Shown here: positions 8,873-19,344 of the stretch, piece by piece | Layout: each line of letters begins with the position of its first letter | Numbering within the stretch: position 1 is the stretch's first letter | Assembly: GCF_023150235.1 (NCBI RefSeq) | Contig: NZ_JAKLLH010000009.1 | Location: 1 to 64,000 of the forward strand | Length of the DNA stretch: 64,000 nt | Direction: 5' to 3' | DNA from: Azonexus sp. | GTDB lineage: Bacteria; Pseudomonadota; Gammaproteobacteria; Burkholderiales; Rhodocyclaceae | Notes under the pieces: model-generated | Database searches by the model: none | Told to the model about the DNA's origin: nothing | The model's input: only the letters and a program-made list of their open reading frames with translations | Made by a program: the position numbers and the translations under genes

Positions 8873-9151
8873 ATGGGCCATCTGAGCAACGAATCCTTTG
8901 AAGAATTCCTGGATTCCCTGAAGAAAGCTGGCATTACGATTTCCAACGAAGCCGAACTGCGCGAACGTCTGGCCGAAGCCCAGCGCTGGCGCTTTGCCTT
9001 CCAGACCCTGGCCGCCAACGGCAAGTCGATCGGCATCAGCTTTGCCGAAACCGCCGAAGGTCGCAACGACGCCGAAATCGAGCGTGCGTTCGCTGAATTC
9101 AGTCTCTCCGACCGGACCCGTGCAGTCTTCTCCGCCAGCCTGCGGCATTGA
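8873..9151 (+). CDS. Small hypothetical protein
   Basis: 92 residues, predicted mostly helical (EELDSL-like and ELRERLAEAQRWRFAFQTL segments), no signal peptide or membrane segment. I do not recognise the family. The start at ATG 8873 has GGAGAA 6-7 bases upstream, and a clean terminator follows, so it is a monocistronic gene. It stands between the methyltransferase and a cyclic-nucleotide-binding protein gene. Confidence 0.75.
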   Translation: MGHLSNESFEEFLDSLKKAGITISNEAELRERLAEAQRWRFAFQTLAANGKSIGISFAETAEGRNDAEIERAFAEFSLSDRTRAVFSASLRH

Positions 9152-9185
9152 GCAGGTAAAGCTTGCCGCAGTGTCGGCATGGCTC

Positions 9186-9213
9186 AGGGCGCCCCGGCGG
9201 CGCCCTTTGTTTT
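9186..9213 (+). terminator. Rho-independent terminator
   Basis: Hairpin AGGGCGCC/GGCGCCCT then TTGTTTT, following the 92-residue gene. Confidence 0.75.
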
Positions 9214-9313
9214 ACGTCGAAAGCTTGTCCTCTCCATTCTTTCTGCCTGGCTGCGGCGGTTCGCTGTCCCCGTTAGGTTTGCATAAAGTGCAGGCAAGCG
9301 GTGGAGGGAGTCC

Positions 9314-9796
9314 TTGGCCAGCATCCTGAAGTTGTCTTTTGGCGGCAAGGCGCCGGCGGCTCATCACCGTCTGGGAAAGACCTTTCTTTTCTCGGGTTTG
9401 ACTCGACGTCAGTTGAAAATCGTCGACGCACTCCTGCATGACCGGCATTACCTGGCGGGTGAAGTCGTTTTCGATCTTGGCGAGGAGGGGCAGGCGCTCT
9501 ATATCCTCCTGTCGGGGCGAATGGCGGTTTTGCACCCGGCTCAGGGTGAGTTGCCGCTGGCTGAGCTTGGCTCCGGTGATTTTTTTGGCGAAATGGCCCT
9601 GCTTGACGAGTTGCCGCGCTCGGCCCAGGTGCGGGCGCTCGAGGATAGTCATGTCGCTGTTCTCTTTCGCGGCGATTTCGAGAAATTGATGGAGTCGCAC
9701 GCCGAACTTGCTTCCCGGATCGCCATGCAGCTGGCACGCTATCTTGGCAATCGTCTGCGCCAGATGCTGGTGCAGCGGCCCGCGAGCGGCGATTGA
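9314..9796 (+). CDS. Cyclic nucleotide-binding domain protein
   Basis: 160 residues forming essentially one cNMP-binding (CRP-type) domain: FLFSGLTRRQLKIVDALL, GEVVFDLGEEGQALYILLSG, and the phosphate-binding cassette GDFFGEMALLDELPRSAQ. No DNA-binding helix-turn-helix follows, so it is probably a stand-alone sensor rather than a transcription factor. Start is TTG 9314 with GGAGGGAG directly upstream; no ATG alternative keeps the domain whole. Its stop overlaps the start of the AI-2E family gene, so the two are translationally coupled. The cassette has the conserved glutamate and arginine expected for ligand binding. Confidence 0.82.
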   Translation: MASILKLSFGGKAPAAHHRLGKTFLFSGLTRRQLKIVDALLHDRHYLAGEVVFDLGEEGQALYILLSGRMAVLHPAQGELPLAELGSGDFFGEMALLDELPRSAQVRALEDSHVAVLFRGDFEKLMESHAELASRIAMQLARYLGNRLRQMLVQRPASGD

Positions 9797-10923
9797 GTCC
9801 ACATTCCGTTCCGCTGCTGCCCTACCGGCCCGGCCCCGTTGCCTGGCTGGGAATCGTCGCCGCCACCTGCCTGATTCTTTTCCTGTTTGAAAAGATACTC
9901 TGGCTGGTTGTCCCCTTTGTCATGGGGCTGCTCATTCATTACGTGCTGTCGCCGCTGAAATACCGCTTGCTGCTTGCAGGCGTACCGCATAAGACAGCGG
10001 CGGCACTGGTTGCCCTGGGGGCTTTCCTGGCCCTGGGGGGGCTGCTTTTTCTTTCCGTGCCGCGCTTGAGTACCGAGCTTGGATCTTGGCCGGAGTTGAC
10101 CGCCCGTTATCTCGACGGGGGCATCCGCCTGCTGACCGACTCCGTGCGGCAACTGGAGAAGCGTTTTTCATTCCTTGCGCACGCCCATGTCAGTCGCGAA
10201 CTGGCGCTACAGATCGCCGATCTGACCAATAGTTTTGCCCACAAATATCTCCCGGCTGTGGCGGTAACCCTCGCAGCTTGGGCGCCGTCCCTTCTACTCG
10301 GCCCCTTCATTGCCTTCTTCATGCTGCGCGATGGTTGGCGCTTCAAGAAATTTCTCGGACGTTCGGTAGCCAATGCCTATTTCGAGCGAACACTCTACCT
10401 GCTCGATCAGGTAGACCGTACTGCCCGCGTCTATTTTGTCGGTTTGTTGCAGTTGACCGTGTTCGATACCCTCTGCCTGGCCTTGGGCCTGTGGGTGCTG
10501 GGAATGTCGAATCCCTTGCTTCTGGGTTTGCTGACAGCCGTTTTGGCCTGGGTTCCCTTCATCGGTTCGGTGATGGGCTGCGTCGTCGTGGTGCTGGTGG
10601 CTGCAACCGACTTTCCCGGCAACCCCGGAATGGCTTATGGAGCCGTGTTGCTGTTCGTGGTCGTCCGCTTGCTGGACGATTTTGTATTCATGCCGCTGAC
10701 GATTGGCAAAAGCCTGAAAATGCACCCTTTGCTGACAGTCCTGATGATCTTTGTCGGTGGCGCGGTAGCGGGCGTCCCAGGTTTGATGCTGGTCTTGCCG
10801 GTACTCGGGGTAGTGATGGTGCTTGGGGAAAGTATCGGGATGATCGTCACGGATGCCCGCTTGCGGGCTCGCCACGCACATGCGCGAACCCTGCGCGAAG
10901 CAGCGGCGCGTCGCGGCTTGTAA
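9793..10923 (+). CDS. AI-2E family transporter (UPF0118 permease)
   Basis: 376-residue integral membrane protein with about 7-8 hydrophobic segments (around residues 15-50, 62-82, 145-175, 205-240, 240-265, 270-300, 305-345). Family features include FIAFFMLRDG and the C-terminal VGGAVAGVPGLMLVLPVLGVV. Members export or take up varied small molecules; the substrate here is unknown. The TTG start at 9793 overlaps the TGA of the cyclic-nucleotide-binding gene, implying coupled translation. Upstream and downstream alternatives have no better ribosome site. Confidence 0.82.
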   Translation: MSPHSVPLLPYRPGPVAWLGIVAATCLILFLFEKILWLVVPFVMGLLIHYVLSPLKYRLLLAGVPHKTAAALVALGAFLALGGLLFLSVPRLSTELGSWPELTARYLDGGIRLLTDSVRQLEKRFSFLAHAHVSRELALQIADLTNSFAHKYLPAVAVTLAAWAPSLLLGPFIAFFMLRDGWRFKKFLGRSVANAYFERTLYLLDQVDRTARVYFVGLLQLTVFDTLCLALGLWVLGMSNPLLLGLLTAVLAWVPFIGSVMGCVVVVLVAATDFPGNPGMAYGAVLLFVVVRLLDDFVFMPLTIGKSLKMHPLLTVLMIFVGGAVAGVPGLMLVLPVLGVVMVLGESIGMIVTDARLRARHAHARTLREAAARRGL

Positions 10924-10934
10924 GCGTCCCCTGG

Positions 10935-11135
10935 TCAGTAGTGTGGAGGTATCTCGTCGCGCAAGCTGTGAGCCTCGTTGTCTGGCTGATTGCGAAGCTG
11001 TTCCCGAAGAGTGCGCAATTCGCCAATCAGAAAGTCGATTTGCTGCTGTTGTTTGTAAATTGCACGATTATGCTCGTCGACCGTATCCTCGAGATAGCTG
11101 ATCTTGATTTCAAGTTCGGTCATGCGATTTTCCAT
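10935..11135 (-). CDS. slyX: SlyX family protein
   Basis: 66 residues: an N-terminal coiled coil MTELEIKISYLEDTVDEHN followed by LNxxIYKQQQQID-like heptads and a C-terminal PPHY, the SlyX signature. Function unknown. I use ATG 11135 with AAGGA upstream; it overlaps the end of a 56-codon membrane-protein gene by 26 bases. Converges on the AI-2E family gene with an 11-base gap. Confidence 0.85.
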   Translation of the reverse strand: MENRMTELEIKISYLEDTVDEHNRAIYKQQQQIDFLIGELRTLREQLRNQPDNEAHSLRDEIPPHY

Positions 11136-11280
11136 GTTTTGTTTCCTTTTCCGGGTCATTCCCGACATCGTTGCACGGCTTGTCCGCGGGAGGTTTGCGA
11201 TAGCGGCCATGAAGTAACGGCAGGGTGGCGCCGATCAGTGTCAATGTGCAGAGTGCAAAGATAATCAAGCCTTGGCTCAT
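11110..11280 (-). CDS. Small single-span membrane protein upstream of slyX
   Basis: A 56-codon reading frame with a very good ribosome site, AGGAGG 8 bases before ATG 11280. It encodes one hydrophobic span (LIIFALCTLTLIGATLPLL, residues 5-23) then a charged, lysine/histidine-rich tail. Its stop lies inside slyX, overlapping the slyX start by 26 bases in another frame, as expected for translational coupling. I do not recognise the family. The strong ribosome site and membrane span make it likely to be real despite its length. Confidence 0.6.
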   Translation of the reverse strand: MSQGLIIFALCTLTLIGATLPLLHGRYRKPPADKPCNDVGNDPEKETKHGKSHDRT

Positions 11281-11369
11281 CCTTGGTTCCTCCTGTTGGC
11301 CGGCATCTTAACCGCTTGTCCCCGCGCTGCGGGAAAGTGCGATCGATGATGGAAATTCAAGAGGAAATA

Positions 11370-11398
11370 TTGACAGCATTCCTGGTGATTTATATAAT
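11370..11398 (+). promoter_or_regulatory. Sigma70 promoter of tRNA-Asn
   Basis: Perfect -35 TTGACA (11370-11375) and -10 TATAAT (11393-11398) with a 17-base spacer; the tRNA begins 13 bases after the -10. Confidence 0.9.
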
Positions 11399-11410
11399 CT
11401 TGGCTTCGAT

Positions 11411-11486
11411 TCCTCGATAGCTCAGTCGGTAGAGCGCCGGACTGTTAATCCGTAGGTCCCTGGTTCGAGCCCAGGTCGGGGAGCCA
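11411..11486 (+). tRNA. tRNA-Asn (GTT)
   Basis: 76-base cloverleaf. Acceptor TCCTCGA pairs with TCGGGGA (one T-G pair), D arm GCTCAGTCGGTAGAGC, anticodon GTT at 11444-11446 in loop CTGTTAA, T arm with GGTTCGAGCCC, discriminator G and encoded CCA at 11484-11486. It has its own consensus promoter and terminator and lies about 100 bases left of the accessory island. Confidence 0.97.
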
Positions 11487-11492
11487 AATTCA

Positions 11493-11527
11493 AACGCCCG
11501 CAAGATTACCTTGCGGGCGTTGCTGTT
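11493..11527 (+). terminator. Terminator of tRNA-Asn
   Basis: Hairpin ACGCCCGCAA/TTGCGGGCGT with a short T-rich tail right after the tRNA. Confidence 0.8.
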
Positions 11528-11591
11528 TCCGGGGCTGGTTTTTTCTGCTGCTGCGGCCGGAGGCGGGGATGTGCGAGCGGTATCGATAAAT

Positions 11592-11638
11592 AAAAAATGG
11601 CGGGATTGCTCCAAGCCGTTAACCGTTTCTGTTGAAAC
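11592..11638 (+). repeat. Left inverted repeat of the island
   Basis: 47 bases beginning AAAAAATGGCGGGA and ending with AAGCCGTTAACCGTTTC then TGTTGAAAC. The last 26 bases match the right copy perfectly in inverted orientation; the GGGATTGCTCC core between the arms is a small palindrome whose loop reads in the same direction in both copies. Confidence 0.8.
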
Positions 11639-11680
11639 GGATCGGCAAAGCCAGAACTGACGGGGCCTGCAAGGAAGAAG

Positions 11681-11711
11681 CCTGCCGAAGATTTTTTCGG
11701 CAGGTTTTTTT
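11681..11711 (+). terminator. Terminator inside the left end of the island
   Basis: Stem CCTGCCGAA/TTCGGCAGG, loop GATTTT, followed by seven T residues. It lies between the left inverted repeat and the transposase-like gene and should stop transcripts entering from the tRNA side. A near-identical hairpin recurs at 14455-14479. Confidence 0.8.
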
Positions 11712-11755
11712 ACGCCTGCTGTAAACAGAACGGATGCCAATGCGTTATTTAATAC

Positions 11756-13543
11756 ATGGCCTCTCAAAATCAAACCCCTCCGAAACCCGCTCGGCGCAAG
11801 CTATTGCGGGTGCCGCCACCGTCGAACGGGATCAACGTCAATTTCTGCAAGAACCCGATCTGTCCGAATTTCGGGGTTCCAATCGAACCTAAGGCCCAGA
11901 AGGGCCCGGGAGCTCAGAACCCCTACACGGTCGTCGCCAACGGGCCGAGCATGCCGGCGGGCAAATGCAACCATTGCGGCGAAATCTTCACCATCAAAAG
12001 CAACCAGGGCGTCTTCGAGGAAACCCACCGCATCCTCTCCAGAGTGGAAGGACTGCCGTGTTGCCCGGAGCTTCATTGTCCGAATCATCGGGTTTCGATC
12101 AATGTCCCCGGCGCCTACCATGAGTTCGGCGTTACTAGCGCCGGCTCAAAACGCTATCGTTGCAAGGCTGCCGGATGCGGCAAGATGTTCTCCGTAAAAT
12201 CCAGGGATCGCAACCCGATCGCCAAGCAAACGCAGTCGGACAAGAACCGATACATCTTTTCCCTGCTGGTGAATAAGTCCCCAATGCGCCGCATCTGCGA
12301 GGTGGCCAACGTCACTCCGAAGGTCCTATACGACCGCATCGACTTCCTGTTCGAACAGGCCACCGCTTTCCTGTCGGAGCGAGAGCGGCGCCTGTGCGAT
12401 ATGGAGATTCCTCGCCTGTTCATTGGCGTGGATCGCCAGGATAAAGTCATCAACTGGTCCCAGAGGGCTGACAAGCGGAACGTCACGATCTCCTCGGTCG
12501 CCGCGGCTGACAACGAGACCGGATATGTGTTCGGGATGGTCCCTAATTTCGATGGCGAGCCCAATTCGGCCGACATCAACGCCGAACTCAAAGCATTGGG
12601 CGAACTTCAAATGCCGGCTTGCCATCGAACCCACGCAAGACTGTGGCTGCAACAAGAATTCGACGAAAGGCTGAAGGCCTCCAAGAAATACATCGGTCGA
12701 GGAACGCTTCCGTCCGCCATCGCCGCTTCCTATGCGACCGCGGTCGCAAGGCCGGATGTTGAAGCCCCCGAACACGTCGTCCTAGAGGACATGCTCCCAA
12801 ACGATGGCATGCTGGTTCATGCGGAATACACCCTCTATGGATTCTTCATGGCGCTGCGCAAGATGTTCGGCAACGTCGAAAAAGTCCGCTTCTTCCTTGA
12901 CCAGGACTCGGGCATGCGCGCCGCCTGCCTGGCGGCGTTTCAAGAGAGGATTTCGGCGGGGACCTGCGACGCGTTCTATGTGCGGATATCCAAAGACTTG
13001 ATCATTGATGACAAACGGAAACTCATGCAGGAGGCTAAGGATCAGTTCGACATTGTCGCGGCGGCCAACCCGGGGCTGGATCAATCCGACGTCGAGCTAC
13101 TGATGCTCAAGGACCGAATCGCCAATGCCAGAACCTACGGCAAGTGGAATGATCGCTGGGTGTTCCATCCGCTGCCGACCCTTTCTGAAACCGAGAAGGC
13201 CGTTTGCCATTTGACTGACATCGGAGGCTACAACCCGGACCATCTCGCTCGCGTTTACGGCAAGGCAAGCCTCCATGCGGTCGATTCGTTCTTCAATCGC
13301 ATCCGTCGCCGCTCGTCGATGCTGGAGCGTCCCGTGCATTCGTCGGCGAACCGCGGCCGAGTGTTCAACGCCTATTCGGCCTACCTTCCGGAACAGATCG
13401 ACAAAATCCAAACGCTGATCCGCGCCTGCCACAACTACGTCTGGGTCGGCGAAGGGAAGAACGCACCGAAAGGGACTCCGGCAACCCGGCTCGGTCTGGC
13501 GAAGGCGCCGCTTGACCTGAACGACATCATTTACTTTAGATAA
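11756..13543 (+). CDS. Zinc-finger DDE-type transposase-like protein
   Basis: 595 residues. N-terminus: repeated cysteine pairs (C31/C36, C71/C74, C102-C103/C108, C136/C141) that look like two or more zinc ribbons, reminiscent of IS1-type InsA heads. A helix-turn-helix-like segment follows (about 179-197, CEVANVTPKVLYDRIDFL). Then comes an RNase H-like core with candidate catalytic D226 in FIGVDRQD, D382/D384 in FFLDQDSG, and E524 in RIRRRSSMLERP. That last block resembles the C-terminal signature of IS1-like transposases. The family assignment is not certain; it is much longer than IS1 transposase. The start at ATG 11756 has no clear ribosome site, which would keep expression low. A likely companion gene follows 85 bases downstream. 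Confidence 0.6.
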   Translation: MASQNQTPPKPARRKLLRVPPPSNGINVNFCKNPICPNFGVPIEPKAQKGPGAQNPYTVVANGPSMPAGKCNHCGEIFTIKSNQGVFEETHRILSRVEGLPCCPELHCPNHRVSINVPGAYHEFGVTSAGSKRYRCKAAGCGKMFSVKSRDRNPIAKQTQSDKNRYIFSLLVNKSPMRRICEVANVTPKVLYDRIDFLFEQATAFLSERERRLCDMEIPRLFIGVDRQDKVINWSQRADKRNVTISSVAAADNETGYVFGMVPNFDGEPNSADINAELKALGELQMPACHRTHARLWLQQEFDERLKASKKYIGRGTLPSAIAASYATAVARPDVEAPEHVVLEDMLPNDGMLVHAEYTLYGFFMALRKMFGNVEKVRFFLDQDSGMRAACLAAFQERISAGTCDAFYVRISKDLIIDDKRKLMQEAKDQFDIVAAANPGLDQSDVELLMLKDRIANARTYGKWNDRWVFHPLPTLSETEKAVCHLTDIGGYNPDHLARVYGKASLHAVDSFFNRIRRRSSMLERPVHSSANRGRVFNAYSAYLPEQIDKIQTLIRACHNYVWVGEGKNAPKGTPATRLGLAKAPLDLNDIIYFR

Positions 13544-13628
13544 CGACCCGGCTCCATCCGACGAGCGGCCTTGCCTTTTTTCCTTGGAATGCTATGTCTA
13601 TAGCATCAAAAACAACCTGGAGAATGAT

Positions 13629-14423
13629 ATGGAACGGGGCAATGACCGCAATGCGACTTTTTACAACGAGCTCCGGGGGATGGCTGCGCGCCTCAACCAA
13701 ATGGCCGAGCATCTCGACCAGGAAAGCGACCTCTTGGTGATTGGTGGAGATGCGGAGGAAGGTGAGTTTTCCGTGGATCTCCTGGACGGCCTCGCGCCTC
13801 AGTTGGTGGCCGACATCCTGAAATCAGTCGCTCGGCAATCTGGCGGCGGCGGAAACGCTGATTCGTTCTGGCCTGACATGGCCTCGGAAGTCGTTCGAAA
13901 CGTCGCTGTCGTCTCCCGAGCTTTTGACTTGACCGTCAAAGGGTTGGAATGGAAGAAAGAGCATGGAGAACGGCCTTACTCGCTGGCGTTCATCTACCAG
14001 TTGGCGATGAGCCCGGACACCTTGCTTGAAGTGGTTCTCAAAGGGATCAAAGACACCGTAGAGACTGACTTCGAAGTAATCAGCGAATACGTAACTCCCG
14101 AACTTTTTGATGCGATAAAGTTCCTCTCCGACACCTGGCTACCGATGACACCTGCAACCCAGGACGGCATTAAAGTCAATATCAGCAAAATCCTAGGGCC
14201 CTTCGCAGGCGATGTGGTTCTGCGCCGTAGATTCGCATCCGGCAACGGGGCGAGCCTCGCCGATAACCCGCAACTTTTGGCCAAGCTCGCACGCACGCAC
14301 TTCTCGGTTCTCGAATTCGGCGTCGCCGCCCGCCTCATGAATGTCTTCTTGACGACGCTGCTCATGAGTGCGGCGATTCATAGGGTGAAGGCCTCCAAGG
14401 CCAACCCAAGGGCGAGCAACTAA
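13629..14423 (+). CDS. Unrecognised island protein following the transposase-like gene
   Basis: 264 residues, mostly helical and acidic, with no Walker motif, zinc site or membrane segment that I can see. Features: an acidic run GGDAEEGEFSVDLLDGL near residue 40, a glycine stretch SGGGGN near residue 75, and a hydrophobic C-terminal helix VAARLMNVFLTTLLMSAAI. ATG 13629 has GGAG 6 bases upstream; an in-frame TTG at 13584 has no ribosome site. Its position directly after the transposase-like gene, inside the same hairpin-bracketed segment, suggests it belongs to the mobility module rather than the cargo. Function unknown. Confidence 0.7.
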   Translation: MERGNDRNATFYNELRGMAARLNQMAEHLDQESDLLVIGGDAEEGEFSVDLLDGLAPQLVADILKSVARQSGGGGNADSFWPDMASEVVRNVAVVSRAFDLTVKGLEWKKEHGERPYSLAFIYQLAMSPDTLLEVVLKGIKDTVETDFEVISEYVTPELFDAIKFLSDTWLPMTPATQDGIKVNISKILGPFAGDVVLRRRFASGNGASLADNPQLLAKLARTHFSVLEFGVAARLMNVFLTTLLMSAAIHRVKASKANPRASN

Positions 14424-14454
14424 CCACAAAAGCAGTCCTCATAGGAAGGAAAAG

Positions 14455-14479
14455 CCTGCCGAAAATTTTCTTCGGCAGG
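14455..14479 (+). terminator. Hairpin after the mobility module (possible terminator)
   Basis: Stem CCTGCCGAA/TTCGGCAGG with loop AATTTTC, the same stem as the hairpin at 11681-11704 and with the same AAGGAA lead-in. The tail is CCTATCTTT, so termination would be weaker than for the left copy. Confidence 0.6.
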
Positions 14480-14627
14480 CCTATCTTTATGAGGTCCGTC
14501 AATTTAGACGGCGTCTGCATTCAAAGGAATCTTGCTTGAAAATACCAAACAGCTAGCCCGTTCGCATTGGGTCACCTATGGCGGCGTGTTACCCTTTCAG
14601 GTTCTTGCACGACGGATATAGCACGCG

Positions 14628-15608
14628 ATGATCATCAAAGAAGCCGACGACAAAAAATCCTCGATTCGGGCACTGCAAGCCCTGCTGTCCCGTCCCGACT
14701 GCAGAGCAGATACCAGGAAGCGCATCGATCAGGAAATCCGCAACATTCAGGCAGGTATTCGGGGTGAAGAGGAAGCCGCCTACGAGATAAAGGTCCATTG
14801 GGGCGAGTCCAAAAACTGGATGGCCATCCATGACCTGCGCATCGAGCATGGCGGGCTGGTTGCCCAGATCGATCATCTGCTGATCAACCGTTTCATGGAA
14901 ATTTGGGTTTGCGAGAGCAAGCACTTCTCCGAGGGAATCGGTATCAACGAGCACGGCGAATTCGCCGCCTTCTTCGGCGGCAAACCCTACGGTGTTCCGT
15001 CCCCCATCGAGCAGAACACCAAGCACATCCTGATTTTGAGGAAGCTCTTTGACTCCGGCGCGGTCAAGCTGCCGACACGGCTCGGCTTCACCATCAAGCC
15101 TGATCTGAAAAGCCTCGTCCTCGTCTCCAAGGGCGCCCGCATCAGTCGCCCCAAAGCCAAGATCGACGGCATGGACGCGATCATCAAGAACGACCAAGTT
15201 TTCAAATACATCGACAAGTCCATCGACCAGAGCAACAACCCGCTATTGATGGCAAAGATCATCGGGCAGGACACGCTAGAGGCCTTGGCGCGCGACATCG
15301 CGAAACTGCACAAGCCTATCGCCTTCGATTGGACGGCGAAGTTCGGGCTGCCCAAGGAGCCGCCCGCGGCGCCTGTGGTGAAGCCCGAGCCTACTCCAGA
15401 GGCGCCCAAGGCGGAAGCCGCCGCACCGACGCCGGATGCTGCACAGCCTACCGAATCGCAGGAGCAGAAGCCCAAGCAGAAGCTCGTCTGCCATACCTGC
15501 GGAACCTCCGTCGGTTACAACGTGGCAAAGTTCTGCTGGTTCAACAAGCCGAAATTCGGCGGCAACATTTACTGCATGGACTGCCAGAAGACCGTCGCGG
15601 CGGCGTAG
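14628..15608 (+). CDS. NERD-domain nuclease with C-terminal zinc ribbon
   Basis: 326 residues. NERD (nuclease-related domain) features: GIRGEEEAAYEI (about 43-54, with the conserved early glutamate), QIDHLLI (D82), and CESKHF with the E96-x-K98 pair, i.e. the restriction-endonuclease active-site layout. A long proline/alanine-rich linker (about 240-285) leads to a C-terminal zinc ribbon, CHTC at 288 and CMDC at 316. NERD proteins occur in mobile elements and in several antiphage systems; a DNA-cleaving role is inferred. First gene of a three-gene cassette; 18 bases separate it from the next. Confidence 0.8.
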   Translation: MIIKEADDKKSSIRALQALLSRPDCRADTRKRIDQEIRNIQAGIRGEEEAAYEIKVHWGESKNWMAIHDLRIEHGGLVAQIDHLLINRFMEIWVCESKHFSEGIGINEHGEFAAFFGGKPYGVPSPIEQNTKHILILRKLFDSGAVKLPTRLGFTIKPDLKSLVLVSKGARISRPKAKIDGMDAIIKNDQVFKYIDKSIDQSNNPLLMAKIIGQDTLEALARDIAKLHKPIAFDWTAKFGLPKEPPAAPVVKPEPTPEAPKAEAAAPTPDAAQPTESQEQKPKQKLVCHTCGTSVGYNVAKFCWFNKPKFGGNIYCMDCQKTVAAA

Positions 15609-15626
15609 GCAGCAAAGGGGGAAAGC

Positions 15627-16568
15627 ATGATCCAGAAAATCACCCGCATCCCGCTTCGGGACGCGTTCAAGCATGAGGCGCTGGACTTCACGCGCTGGCT
15701 GGAAGAGAACATCGATGTCCTGAACGACTGCCTCGACATCACGCTTTCGAACGCCGAGCGCGAGCAGGCAGCCGGCGACTTCTCCGTCGATATCGTCTGC
15801 GAGGACGAGTCGGGCTCAAAGGTCATCATCGAGAACCAGTTGGAGAAGTCGAACCACGACCATCTCGGCAAGGTCATCACCTACCTCGTCGCCCTCGAAG
15901 CCAAGACAGCCATCTGGATCGTCTCCGATCCGCGCCCCGAGCATGTCTCCGCCATCACCTGGCTCAACGAGGCCTCGACGGCGAGCTTCTACCTCTTGAA
16001 GCTGGAAGCCATCCAGATCGGCGACTCCGCTCCGGCGCCGCTCCTGACGCTGATCGTCGGTCCGAGCGAATCGACCAAGGCTGTCGGCAAGGCCAAGCAG
16101 GAATTCGCCGAACGCTACGACCTGCGGCGCAACTTCTGGACGAAGCTCCTGACCTACGCCAAGACGAAGACCAAGCTCCATTCGGGCATCTCCCCCGGCA
16201 AGCAGAATTGGGTCGGGACGGGCGCCGGCAAGAGCGGCCTCGCCTACAACTATGTCGTTTGGGAGCACGAGGCGGCTGCCGAGCTCTACATTGACCGCGG
16301 CAAAGAATGCGACGAGGAAAACAAGGCGATCTTCGACGCCCTTCACGCCAAGAAGGAACAGATCGAGGCAGCGTTCGAAGGCAAGCTGGACTGGCAGCGC
16401 CTAGACAACAAGCGGGCCTGCCGCGTCCGCGTGCTGCTGGAAGGAGGCGGATACCGCGACGACGAGACGAAGTTCGAGGCGGTGCACGCCGCCATGGTCG
16501 ACGCCATGATCCGGCTGGAGCGTGCCTTCAAGCCGCATGTCCAGAAGCTCTCCATCGAGAGCGCCTGA
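15627..16568 (+). CDS. DUF4268 protein with N-terminal PD-(D/E)XK-like domain
   Basis: 313 residues in two parts. The N-terminal half resembles a PD-(D/E)XK nuclease: GDFSVDIVCED (D55), then VIIENQLEKSNHDHLG, where E69-x-Q71 stands in for the usual E-x-K and is followed by a helix leading to ITYL. The C-terminal half is DUF4268-like, with YNYVVWEHEAAAELYIDRG and later DNKRACRVRVLLEGGGYRD. Biochemical role unknown. GGGGAAAG lies just upstream of ATG 15627. Tight spacing on both sides indicates cotranscription with the NERD and CoiA-like genes. Confidence 0.78.
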   Translation: MIQKITRIPLRDAFKHEALDFTRWLEENIDVLNDCLDITLSNAEREQAAGDFSVDIVCEDESGSKVIIENQLEKSNHDHLGKVITYLVALEAKTAIWIVSDPRPEHVSAITWLNEASTASFYLLKLEAIQIGDSAPAPLLTLIVGPSESTKAVGKAKQEFAERYDLRRNFWTKLLTYAKTKTKLHSGISPGKQNWVGTGAGKSGLAYNYVVWEHEAAAELYIDRGKECDEENKAIFDALHAKKEQIEAAFEGKLDWQRLDNKRACRVRVLLEGGGYRDDETKFEAVHAAMVDAMIRLERAFKPHVQKLSIESA

Positions 16569-16586
16569 CCGCGGACGGGGTAGAAG

Positions 16587-17927
16587 ATGGCGGATACTTG
16601 CCTGTGCGTCGACGATCCCGAAATCGACGAGGTCATCAACCTCGAAACGGGCATCATTTCGACCGCTCGGGCGGTGATCGGTAGCGATTACGACCGGCTT
16701 GAGAAGCTGCGGATGGAACTTGCCGAGGCGAACGCGGCGGGCGACTCCCTCTACGCCTGCCCTATCTGCATGGTCGGCGTCTATCTCTCCTGCCGCAGGA
16801 AGGACGAGAAGCGCTTCTTCTTCAAGCACCGGACCGAGAACGGAAATTGCCCCGCCATCACGCGGGGAGAGCTTTCCAAAGACGAGATGCTGGCGCGAAA
16901 ATACAACGCAGCCAAAGAAAGCAGCGCTCACATCAGGCTCAAGGTGATCATCGCCGACAGCCTGCGGCGCGACCCGAACTTCTCCGAAGTCGAGGCCGAG
17001 AAGGTTTGGCGTGGCATGGACCGCACAAAGTGGCGCAAGCCTGATGTTCAGGCCTTATGGAAAGGCCAGACGCGGATTGCCTTCGAAATCCAGCTATCGA
17101 CGACCTTCCTGCATGTCATCGCGGAGCGGCGGAACTTCTACCGGCAAGAGGGCGGACTGCTCTGCTGGGTGTTCCGCACCTTCGATGAGTCGGAAGCCCG
17201 CATGACGCAGGACGACATCTTCCACAACAACAACCGCAACCTCTTCCTCGCAAGCGAGGAGACGCTGAAAGCATCCGTCGCGGAGAGCGCCCTGATGCTG
17301 GATTGCCATTGGCTGGAGCCAGCCGCTATTGGTGGCGAGGTTGTCGAAGCCTGGCGGCATGCCCGCGTGCCGTTCTCCGATCTTTCCCTCGACCAGGTAG
17401 GGCAGCGGGTGTTCTACCGCGACTGCGAAGGGCTGAAAGCCGGACTCGCCAAGGATGCCGGCGAGGAAGCTTTGAAGCAGCGTTTCTATCTCTGGTGGCG
17501 GCACTCGAAGCGCTCTTGGCAGGATATCGAATGGACCGAGGCGAAGCGGGAATTCAGGAGGCGCGGCGTCTTTCTGCCCGAATACCCGTCCGATGTCCTC
17601 GGCCTGCTTAACGCTCTCTATTCCGCCCGCGAGGGCGAAAGCATTGGCTGGAACCATCCGAATTTCATCTCGGCGGCAAACACGGTTGCCAACAGCTACA
17701 AGAATGTCGTCCGAGCTTTCCGCGCCGCCCTGCTTGTTTACGGACGAGGCGAGCAGTTGACGCAGGAAGACAAGAAAGGCAACTGGGCCAAGCGGGTCAA
17801 GGAATACAAGGAGCGGCTAGCCGCGGGCGATAAGGACTACGACAGAGATCCACAATATGACTCGCTGATCGCTTTCCTCTTTCCCGAGGTTTGGGGAACA
17901 CTTTCAGGCAGCAGCAATGGCGGATAG
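16587..17927 (+). CDS. DUF6035 / CoiA-like nuclease protein
   Basis: 446 residues. N-terminal zinc-like site CPICMVGVYLSC...FKHRTENGNC (C58, C61, H81, C88), as in CoiA-type proteins, where an N-terminal cysteine/histidine site precedes the nuclease. Then comes a PD-(D/E)XK-like core: ESSAHIRLK (about 111), KPDVQALW (D153) and AFEIQLS (E167, Q169), followed by helix AERRNFYRQEG. The C-terminal half is large and uncharacterised. CoiA is a competence-associated nuclease-like protein; here the context is a mobile island, not competence. Last gene of the cassette, 18 bases after the DUF4268 gene. Confidence 0.75.
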   Translation: MADTCLCVDDPEIDEVINLETGIISTARAVIGSDYDRLEKLRMELAEANAAGDSLYACPICMVGVYLSCRRKDEKRFFFKHRTENGNCPAITRGELSKDEMLARKYNAAKESSAHIRLKVIIADSLRRDPNFSEVEAEKVWRGMDRTKWRKPDVQALWKGQTRIAFEIQLSTTFLHVIAERRNFYRQEGGLLCWVFRTFDESEARMTQDDIFHNNNRNLFLASEETLKASVAESALMLDCHWLEPAAIGGEVVEAWRHARVPFSDLSLDQVGQRVFYRDCEGLKAGLAKDAGEEALKQRFYLWWRHSKRSWQDIEWTEAKREFRRRGVFLPEYPSDVLGLLNALYSAREGESIGWNHPNFISAANTVANSYKNVVRAFRAALLVYGRGEQLTQEDKKGNWAKRVKEYKERLAAGDKDYDRDPQYDSLIAFLFPEVWGTLSGSSNGG

Positions 17928-17992
17928 CAGTCGGATTGATCAAAGCCTTAGGCCTTCTTTGTCGTAGGCAAACCAGGAAATTCCTGGCTACC

Positions 17993-18023
17993 AAAAAAAT
18001 GAGCCCCAATCTCCGGGGCTCAT
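17993..18023 (-). terminator. Terminator on the minus strand
   Basis: Stem ATGAGCCCC/GGGGCTCAT with a 7-base loop; on the minus strand it is followed by a run of T. It lies downstream of the aminotransferase gene that ends at 18139, but on the island side of the right inverted repeat. It would also act against antisense transcription of the nuclease operon. Confidence 0.7.
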
Positions 18024-18073
18024 CTCGTAGCGGCCGTCTACCAAGCCGATTGGCCGTTTATGCCAAAGAAATT

Positions 18074-18121
18074 GTTTCAACAGAAACGGTTAACGGCTTG
18101 GGATTGCTCCCGCCATTTTTT
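18074..18121 (-). repeat. Right inverted repeat of the island
   Basis: Inverted copy of 11592-11638: GTTTCAACAGAAACGG then TTAACGGCTT, the GGGATTGCTCCC core, then CGCCATTTTTT. 26 inner bases are identical to the left copy. It starts only 17 bases from the stop codon of the neighbouring aminotransferase gene. Confidence 0.8.
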
Positions 18122-18138
18122 TTTGGCCTGAACAGCGC

Positions 18139-19344
18139 TTACTTGGTCACGGCGGCGATGGCCTTGGCGACGTAGTCGATGTTCTTGCTATTCAGCGCGG
18201 CCAGGCAGATGCGGCCGGTGGACACGGCGTAGATGCCGAACTCGTCTTTCATGCGCTCAACCTGGGCGGCGGTCAGGCCGGTGTAGGAGAACATGCCGCG
18301 CTGCTGGACGACGAAGGAGAAGTCCTGGGCGCAGCCGGTGGCCTTGATCGCGTCGACCAGACCGGTACGCATGGCACGGATGCGGTCACGCATGCCGGCC
18401 AGTTCGGCTTCCCACTGAGCACGCAGTTCGCTCGAGGCGAGTACGCCGGAGACCAGGGCGGCACCGTGGATCGGCGGGTTGGAGTAGTTGGTGCGGATGA
18501 CGCGCTTGACTTGCGACATGACGCGGGCCGACTCGTCCTTGGAGGCGGTGACCACCGACAGGGCGCCGACGCGCTCGCCGTACAGCGAGAAGTTCTTGGA
18601 GAACGAGCTGGAGGCGAAGAATTGCAGGCCGGAGGCAGAGAAGGCGCGGATGGCGACGGCGTCGGCATCGATGCCGTCGGCAAAGCCCTGATAAGCCATG
18701 TCGAGGAAGGGCACCAGGCCGCGTTCCTTGCAGATGCCCACGACTTCAGCCCACTGGGCGTCGCTCATGTCGGCGCCGGTCGGGTTGTGGCAGCAGGCGT
18801 GCAGCAGGACGACGGAGCCCGGGGCCATCTTGTTCAGGTCGGCGACCATGCCGGCGAAGTTCACGCCACGGGTGGCGGCATCGTAGTAGGTGTAATCCTC
18901 AACGATGAAGCCAGCAGCTTCGAACAGCGCGCGGTGGTTTTCCCAGGACGGGTTGGAGATGTAGACCTTGGCATCCGGGTTCAGGCGCTTCAGGTAGTCG
19001 GCGCCGATCTTCAGCGCGCCGGTGCCGCCGACGGCCTGGGCGGTGATCACGCGGCCGGCGGCGAGCAGGTCGGAACCCTGGCCGAAGAGCAGGTTCTGCA
19101 CGGCGCCGGTGTAGGCGGCCGGGCCTTCGATCGGCTGGTAGCCGCGCGGCGGGGCAGCCTTCAGGCGGGTCTCTTCGGCGGCCTTGACGGCGGCCAGCAG
19201 CGGAATCTTGCCGTTGTCGTCGAAGTAGACGCCAACGCCGAGGTTGACCTTGGTGTCGCGCGTGTCGGCATTGAAAGCTTCGTTCAGGCCGAGGATCGGA
19301 TCGCGCGGGGCCATTTCCACCGCTGCAAAGATCGAAGAGGACAT
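18139..19344 (-). CDS. aspC: Aspartate/aromatic amino acid aminotransferase
   Basis: 401-residue class I PLP aminotransferase of the AspC/TyrB group. Seen: [16 protein letters not shown] at the N-terminus, [11 protein letters not shown] (PLP pyridine-ring region), the PLP lysine in [16 protein letters not shown], and the substrate-carboxylate arginine near [10 protein letters not shown]. AspC and TyrB cannot be told apart reliably here. Start at ATG 19344 with GGAG 7 bases upstream; the longer frame to 19428 overlaps uvrB and is unlikely. Divergent from uvrB. The accessory island begins 17 bases beyond its stop. Confidence 0.9.

Follow-up and report, generated by a model that had tools for sequence, protein, structure and literature searches.

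What is the island of five co-directional genes that lies between inverted repeats beside a tRNA-Asn gene in Azonexus sp., and how did it get there? The window analysed here is a stretch of 64,000 nucleotides (GCF_023150235.1, contig NZ_JAKLLH010000009.1, positions 1-64,000, forward strand), and the region examined spans positions 11592..18121. A preliminary description of this DNA had proposed a transposon carrying one undescribed defence system of three nucleases. Our analysis suggests, with a probability of roughly 0.85, that the island is a DDE transposon lodged in the loop of a terminator hairpin, which carries exchangeable and often defence-type cargo and belongs to an apparently undescribed family.

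When ends and duplication were fitted jointly, the best solution placed the whole transposon at 11612..18100 (+ strand, 6,489 bp), and the fit was reproduced in further analyses. All 24/24 positions of the terminal inverted repeats (TIR) and 9/9 positions of the target site duplication (TSD) agreed (33/33, against 22 in a control with shuffled downstream DNA). The left TIR CAAGCCGTTAACCGTTTCTGTTGAAAC is located at 11612..11638 (+ strand) and the right TIR at 18074..18100 (- strand), both also recovered by the inverted-repeat search; the identical inverted arms cover 28 nt (11611-11638 and 18074-18101). The 9-bp duplication GGATTGCTC is found at 11603..11611 and again at 18101..18109. The inverted ends of 27 bp and the direct duplication are as expected for a DDE transposon. 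The repeats were first described as near-identical over 47/48 bp; they are real, whereas their anatomy is that of TIRs plus a split target. The outer ~20 bp on each side is target DNA outside the element, namely the left half AAAAAATGGCGGGATTGCTC (11592..11611) and the right half GGATTGCTCCCGCCATTTTTTTTT (18101..18124) of one terminator. The outer repeats look near-identical with a differing middle because they combine a direct 9-bp repeat with the two split arms of one hairpin. Only two copies of the arm, at up to 3 mismatches, exist in the 3.4-Mb genome (0 for a control pattern read backwards); with this single pair, a dispersed genomic repeat family was rejected.

The flanks joined with one duplication copy give AATAAAAAATGGCGGGATTGCTCCCGCCATTTTTTTTT, a bidirectional intrinsic terminator with a stem score of 14.5. 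It is positioned between tRNA-Asn (11411-11486) and a convergent gene, a putative aminotransferase named by reading its sequence. The tRNA-Asn noted earlier is present, but the insertion site is the terminator loop. The tRNA as an attachment site was rejected, since the duplication lies 116 bp past it in a separate terminator; moreover, other family members sit in terminators at other loci. Within 110 nt of the aminotransferase stop, 26/30 same-genus loci (window included) have a hairpin that scores at least 8 and has an A/T tract, and the window is one of the 4/30 without such a hairpin near the stop. A tRNA-Asn was within reach at only 2/30 of these loci (L116 and L132; loci are denoted by L numbers), where it is inverted.

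Gene 1 (11756..13543, + strand) encodes a DDE-fold transposase of 595 amino acids with a Cys-rich N-terminus. Its RNase-H-like fold contains the conserved acids D226, D382, D510 and E524; across 45 sequences, D226 and D510 are invariant and D382 and E524 are conserved in at least 90%. No transposase family of Pfam matched gene 1, and in NCBIfam a zinc-domain match reached 13.9 bits (cut-off 27). The IS1 transposase model of NCBIfam matched residues 125-229 at 23.1 bits, below its cut-off of 100, and membership of the IS1 family was rejected on this profile match. Sequence models of Pfam and NCBIfam did not place it in IS256 either; only the fold is alike. The fold matches listed include the IS256-type ISCth4 and Tn5, at an alignment identity of 10-13%. 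Among the best 60 matches listed to sequences of solved structures, nearly all were zinc-finger proteins aligned to the N-terminal part. The transposase family is apparently without a known name, set apart from IS1 and IS256 by these profiles. Distant relatives (23-26% identity) were observed directly behind deoD in 4/4 opened loci (L189-L192) on Photobacterium, Salinivibrio and Vibrio replicons; the Salinivibrio copy bears the annotation 'lactate dehydrogenase'. No ends with a duplication were found at these four loci, and terminator targeting is therefore not claimed for them. The deoD-linked relative is perhaps a domesticated copy.

Related elements were collected from plasmids (127 records, six regions opened) and from a species-genome collection scanned with a four-sequence alignment (71 loci). 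In all, 78 loci were examined, the window included. The search for the left end covered the 700 nt upstream of the transposase, that for the right end the DNA downstream; a pass required a TIR of at least 18/26 plus a duplication of 8-11 bp, with a score of at least 26. This was reached at 39/78 loci, and at 0/78 when the downstream DNA was reversed. L012 passed with wrong boundaries (likely ends ~8877 and 18996, with an imperfect duplication), and L026 and L027 are identical; 37 distinct elements remained after removal of the duplicate and L012. In seven further regions, complete ends and a duplication inside a terminator were found for L174 (same genus, 5.9 kb) and L186 (3.0 kb), and no ends with a duplication for L175, L176, L177, L187 and L188. 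Similar ends flank related transposases at unrelated sites, and the cargo there is a different one. Matches occur in 8/149 near genomes and 5/369 genomes of the class (own genome included in both); of 46 pattern stretches from viral contigs, none was a relative. L055 and L061 are near-identical elements in two Noviherbaspirillum species (transposases 99.8% identical) at two different terminators, probably reflecting recent movement. The contigs of L038 and L049 start and finish in the repeat, as assemblers leave for multi-copy elements. At L014 (8875-14956) each flank resembles one half of a different terminator, and no duplication is present, perhaps a result of recombination between two copies.

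The target was compared across the family. A stem with a score of at least 7 was centred within 2 nt of the duplication at 28/37 sites, compared with 156/16,183 intergenic positions (~1%); with an A/T tract added, the counts were 24/37 and 33/16,183. Random host positions, a control for 38 sites with L026 and L027 both counted, gave 104/14,400 (stem) and 13/14,400 (with tract). The duplication sits on the dyad, typically within 1 nt. A member from Pontibacillus (Bacillota), whose transposase is 22.5% identical to that of the window, is likewise terminator-centred. The apparent preference could instead be for any palindrome or harmless intergenic spot, with terminators as the commonest intergenic palindromes and other insertions selected away. 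Roughly one site in four lacks a hairpin of this score, and selection on insertions is invisible in genomes; both points agree with such an explanation. Nevertheless, selection alone would not give placement on the dyad, and the excess over intergenic positions also argues against it, so that we regard it as unlikely, although worth keeping in mind. As regards the preferred target, the data do not separate a palindrome from a terminator (stem plus T tract).

The element also contains hairpins of its own. One terminator-like hairpin, with a T run behind it, lies just inside the left end (11681..11704, + strand, score 9), and another inside the right end (ATGAGCCCC...GGGGCTCAT; 17999..18023, + strand, score 9). 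Across the family (L026 omitted), a hairpin with a score of at least 8 and a tract within 140 nt inside the TIR was found at 25/39 left and 27/39 right ends, against 11/780 interior stretches. These hairpins likely act as insulation, in that an element which disrupts one terminator supplies its own. In the left ends of many members (e.g. L020, L032, L041 and L058), a hairpin such as AATCCCC...GGGGATT starts at an apparent -10 box before the transposase; a transcript reading in from outside would form this hairpin, whereas transcripts of the element itself might not.

Cargo was compared in 40 elements (38 with TIR and TSD, plus L012 and L014). No further open reading frame (ORF) of 90 amino acids was present in 11, and 28 have at least one behind the transposase. 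L086 stands separate, with a transposase remnant and a 239-amino-acid ORF matching none of the family transposases, and was counted as holding a further gene. With L174 included, 30 elements hold a further gene, L055 and L061 being near-identical copies. Nine elements carry restriction-modification (RM) or restriction-endonuclease domains: a methylase with a NotI-type partner (L018), type III (L019), type IIG-like (L020), type I M + S (L021), a methylase with a BsuBI/PstI-type partner (L031), a methylase whose partner is a weak PADLOC restriction-enzyme match (L032), a methylase whose partner is a weak specificity match (L041), Mrr (L073), and an EcoRI methylase with GmrSD/HNH (L081). NERD, DUF4268 or CoiA-like nucleases are carried by three (window, L052 and L174), and three more hold Fic (L053), AbiEii (L035) or a helicase-Toprim protein with HepT (L012), which brings defence-type cargo to 15/30 gene-carrying elements. 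Other cargo includes SpoIIAA-like (L055, L061), RNase T (L044, with a weak match to PADLOC PDC-S48), Sel1 (L064), DUF192 (L078), IS21 genes (L043), AcrB with Tn3 debris (L014), metabolic genes (L040), and genes without a Pfam match (L048, L072). The L012 element (8877-18996), ~10 kb on a Polaromonas plasmid, encodes a 1,414-amino-acid AAA helicase-Toprim protein, an annotated HNH protein and a HepT/nucleotidyltransferase pair. The 7-kb element of L048 (2126-9178) has four co-directional cargo genes without a Pfam or PADLOC match, which may represent a candidate new system.

In the PADLOC comparison of 62/73 cargo ORFs, 23/25 families among the matches listed were methyltransferase or restriction-enzyme families (at most 4 members each, many on the same proteins); whereas for 62/66 flanking host ORFs the number was 0/25 among the matches listed, mostly helicase and reverse-transcriptase models. 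The contrast between cargo and flanks is one of kind, not of amount. The cargo is also exchanged between close relatives. For example, L044 and L048 have unrelated cargo behind transposases that share 81% identity; the transposases of L018, L020, L021, L031, L032 and L053 (59-70% identical) precede six different cargoes, among which only a weak methylase similarity (L020 and L031) was seen. Such genes might serve the persistence of the element instead of defending the cell, for example through the death of cells from which it is lost or the exclusion of competing elements. The Fic, AbiEii and HepT genes among the family cargo fit this idea, as does the report that RM genes linked to mobile elements can select for cells with an integration (PMC3031569, in the part available). 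In the window, no evident modification or antitoxin partner accompanies any of the three nuclease genes, and this alternative seems rather improbable.

The window cargo consists of gene 2 and three nuclease-like genes. Gene 2 (13584..14423, + strand, 279 amino acids) has no family; a large part of it (residues 37-267) is similar to an internal segment of TraM-recognition/coupling-type proteins of plasmids, and interference with conjugation is a guess. An inverted repeat between genes 2 and 3 (14446..14488, + strand), detected by the repeat search, is partly like the left-end hairpin. The identities first proposed for genes 3 to 5 agree with profile matches. Gene 3 (14628..15608, + strand, 326 amino acids; conserved I81 D82 and E96) is a NERD nuclease-related protein (4.4e-16, 59.8 bits, cut-off 22.1). 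Gene 4 (15627..16568, + strand, 313 amino acids; conserved D55 and E69 N70 Q71) matches DUF4268 (9.3e-33) and, over residues 2-309 of 313 and thus at full length, PADLOC PDC-S11 (1.3e-139), which PADLOC lists as a candidate only. Gene 5 (16587..17927, + strand, 446 amino acids; conserved P152 D153 and E167 Q169) is a CoiA-like nuclease with DUF7830-DUF6035-DUF7829 architecture; DUF6035 scored 45.2 bits (cut-off 22.6), DUF7830 and DUF7829 matched too, and CoiA_nuc fell just below its cut-off (19.4 against 20.3 bits). Genes 4 and 5 had no match among sequences of solved structures. Alignment showed that relatives of genes 3, 4 and 5 retain these residues, which we take to be PD-(D/E)XK-type motifs; this bears out the restriction-type look reported for the three genes, which lie in an element of a family whose cargo is often RM.

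The ORF coordinates agree with five genes in one direction and with the 18-base spacings, as both gaps within the trio are 18 nt. This spacing, the single direction and the restriction-nuclease-type residues in all three proteins are what speak for one dedicated three-nuclease system spread as a unit. The distribution of the genes speaks against it. A survey of 300 genomes of the order, the own genome among them, detected gene 3 in 15 other genomes, gene 4 in 8 and gene 5 in 1, and none of these holds more than one of the three; no second trio was seen there for genes 3-5, nor on plasmids for genes 2-5. Relatives of gene 5 are the cargo of L052 and L174 and also occur in four opened plasmid regions, all without genes 3 and 4; three of these regions adjoin type I restriction or AAA/UvrD plus AbiJ-like genes and one does not. 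The best-looking plasmid relative of gene 3 (one region opened) had no defence context. The trio as a conserved operon was rejected, as its genes were not found together elsewhere in these genomes or on the plasmids searched; with gene 4 already a PADLOC candidate, a single undescribed system is improbable. At L033 (12581-12664), downstream of a transposase relative, 28 residues are 86% identical to gene 4 and are perhaps a remnant of the same cargo.

Several observations weigh against a terminator-seeking transposon family with defence-type cargo. The layout with the transposase near the left end and the cargo behind was built into the search, and 39/78 loci failed the pass criterion; these include short fragments, repeat-bounded contigs (L038, L049) and TIR copies without a matching duplication (L014, L063, L075). 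Hairpin scores were below the threshold at 9/37 sites: L015, L016, L020, L021, L027 and L073 show no clear terminator or hairpin, L031 and L055 are narrowly below the threshold, and L013 has a terminator by eye with the dyad outside the tolerance. Insertion points at 9/37 sites fall within a mechanical ORF of at least 150 amino acids in the joined flanks. No defence-type domain is shown by the other 15/30 gene-carrying elements, including L040 with its metabolic genes, where the cargo ORFs of L017, L029, L045, L060 and L086 lay outside the Pfam scan. The total of matched PADLOC families was as large for flanking host ORFs (166) as for cargo ORFs (155). Empty sites in relatives, which had been named as a sign of mobility, were found by half: in the relative G064 (L110), the hairpin AAAAATGGCGGGATCGCTCCCGCCATTTTT is uninterrupted next to an aminotransferase gene with 95% identity to that of the window, but the tRNA side is unmatched, which leaves an empty target on one side. 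That the island is instead a stable, immobile block with accidental inverted repeats, as its single copy in the own genome might suggest, is scarcely credible given the perfect TIRs, the 9-bp duplication, the similar ends that flank related transposases at unrelated sites, and the uninterrupted hairpin of the relative.

The proposed transposon thus has the expected ends, duplication and DDE-fold transposase, as well as related elements with other cargo. Ends, duplication and target were observed directly; the fold of the transposase suggests that it would bind the 27-bp ends and join them to the target with a 9-bp stagger on the dyad axis of the terminator. Because the stagger is centred on this axis, each flank receives a copy of the terminator loop and one half of the terminator. 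Terminators usually lie between genes, and therefore such insertions should do little harm. The hairpins present within each end would insulate the element and its neighbours mutually. The cargo is exchangeable and often consists of RM or other defence-type genes; in the window it comprises gene 2 and three putative PD-(D/E)XK-type nucleases, whose most likely targets are invading phage or plasmid DNA, with each one probably acting independently. A wider reading appears slightly favoured: a transposase family spanning Pseudomonadota to Bacillota would read the geometry of terminator hairpins and not their sequence, with a loop-centred 9-bp stagger and end hairpins that replace the lost terminator, and would be a dedicated disperser of single compact RM or other defence systems.

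A survey of 2,261 genomes, in the part of the report available, describes RM systems as rare in plasmids and prophages (PMC4176335); it is therefore not clear what carries many of the chromosomal systems. If our reading is true, an element with one transposase, a terminator landing site and one compact system would be a concrete vehicle, with an integration reaction that tends to spare genes. The DNA between transposase and right end would also offer a route to new defence genes, and the family could show directly whether hairpin or cruciform DNA can be read by a transposase.

Compared with known systems, ISCth4 (IS256-type) and Tn5 have a similar fold; whereas identity is 10-13%, gene 1 has no Pfam match, and the Cys-rich N-terminus is particular to it. 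The target and cargo habits of IS256 and Tn5 also differ from those of the window element. IS1 shares a sub-threshold NCBIfam match, and a 9-bp duplication is usual for IS1; the window element differs in its transposase of 595 amino acids, its terminator target and its cargo. Tn7 likewise inserts next to a terminator, at a site where it does no harm, and defence genes are among its cargo too, but it has one fixed site recognised via a dedicated protein, several transposition proteins and a 5-bp duplication. In the available part of its description, IS1272 targets inverted repeats capable of forming stem-loops, which are replaced without leaving a duplication, although a model drawing allows loop-only duplication as a possibility (PMC5678879). 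In the window the stem is split but not replaced, and a second copy of the loop is present. Group IIC introns are mobile elements with terminator stem-loops as insertion signals, but, as far as the accessible text describes, they are retroelements that use an RNA route and insert after or at the stem-loop (PMC7923331); whereas the window element is a DNA transposon in the loop. RM genes are described as moving with transposable elements (PMC3031569, PMC4176335), in the available sections through resident IS1/IS5 copies under laboratory selection; whereas here a dedicated transposon holds the genes between its own ends. The portion available of a further study has as its topic terminators within insertion sequences (IS), not terminators as targets (PMC9208149). 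No account of terminator-loop-targeting transposons with restriction cargo was found in searches of the openly licensed literature. Hairpin-targeting elements (IS1272 and group IIC introns) and IS-linked RM movement are already known; in the literature searched, no element was found that unites the three traits seen here, namely a DDE transposase outside the known classes, 9-bp duplications centred on terminator loops, and defence-type cargo that is exchangeable.

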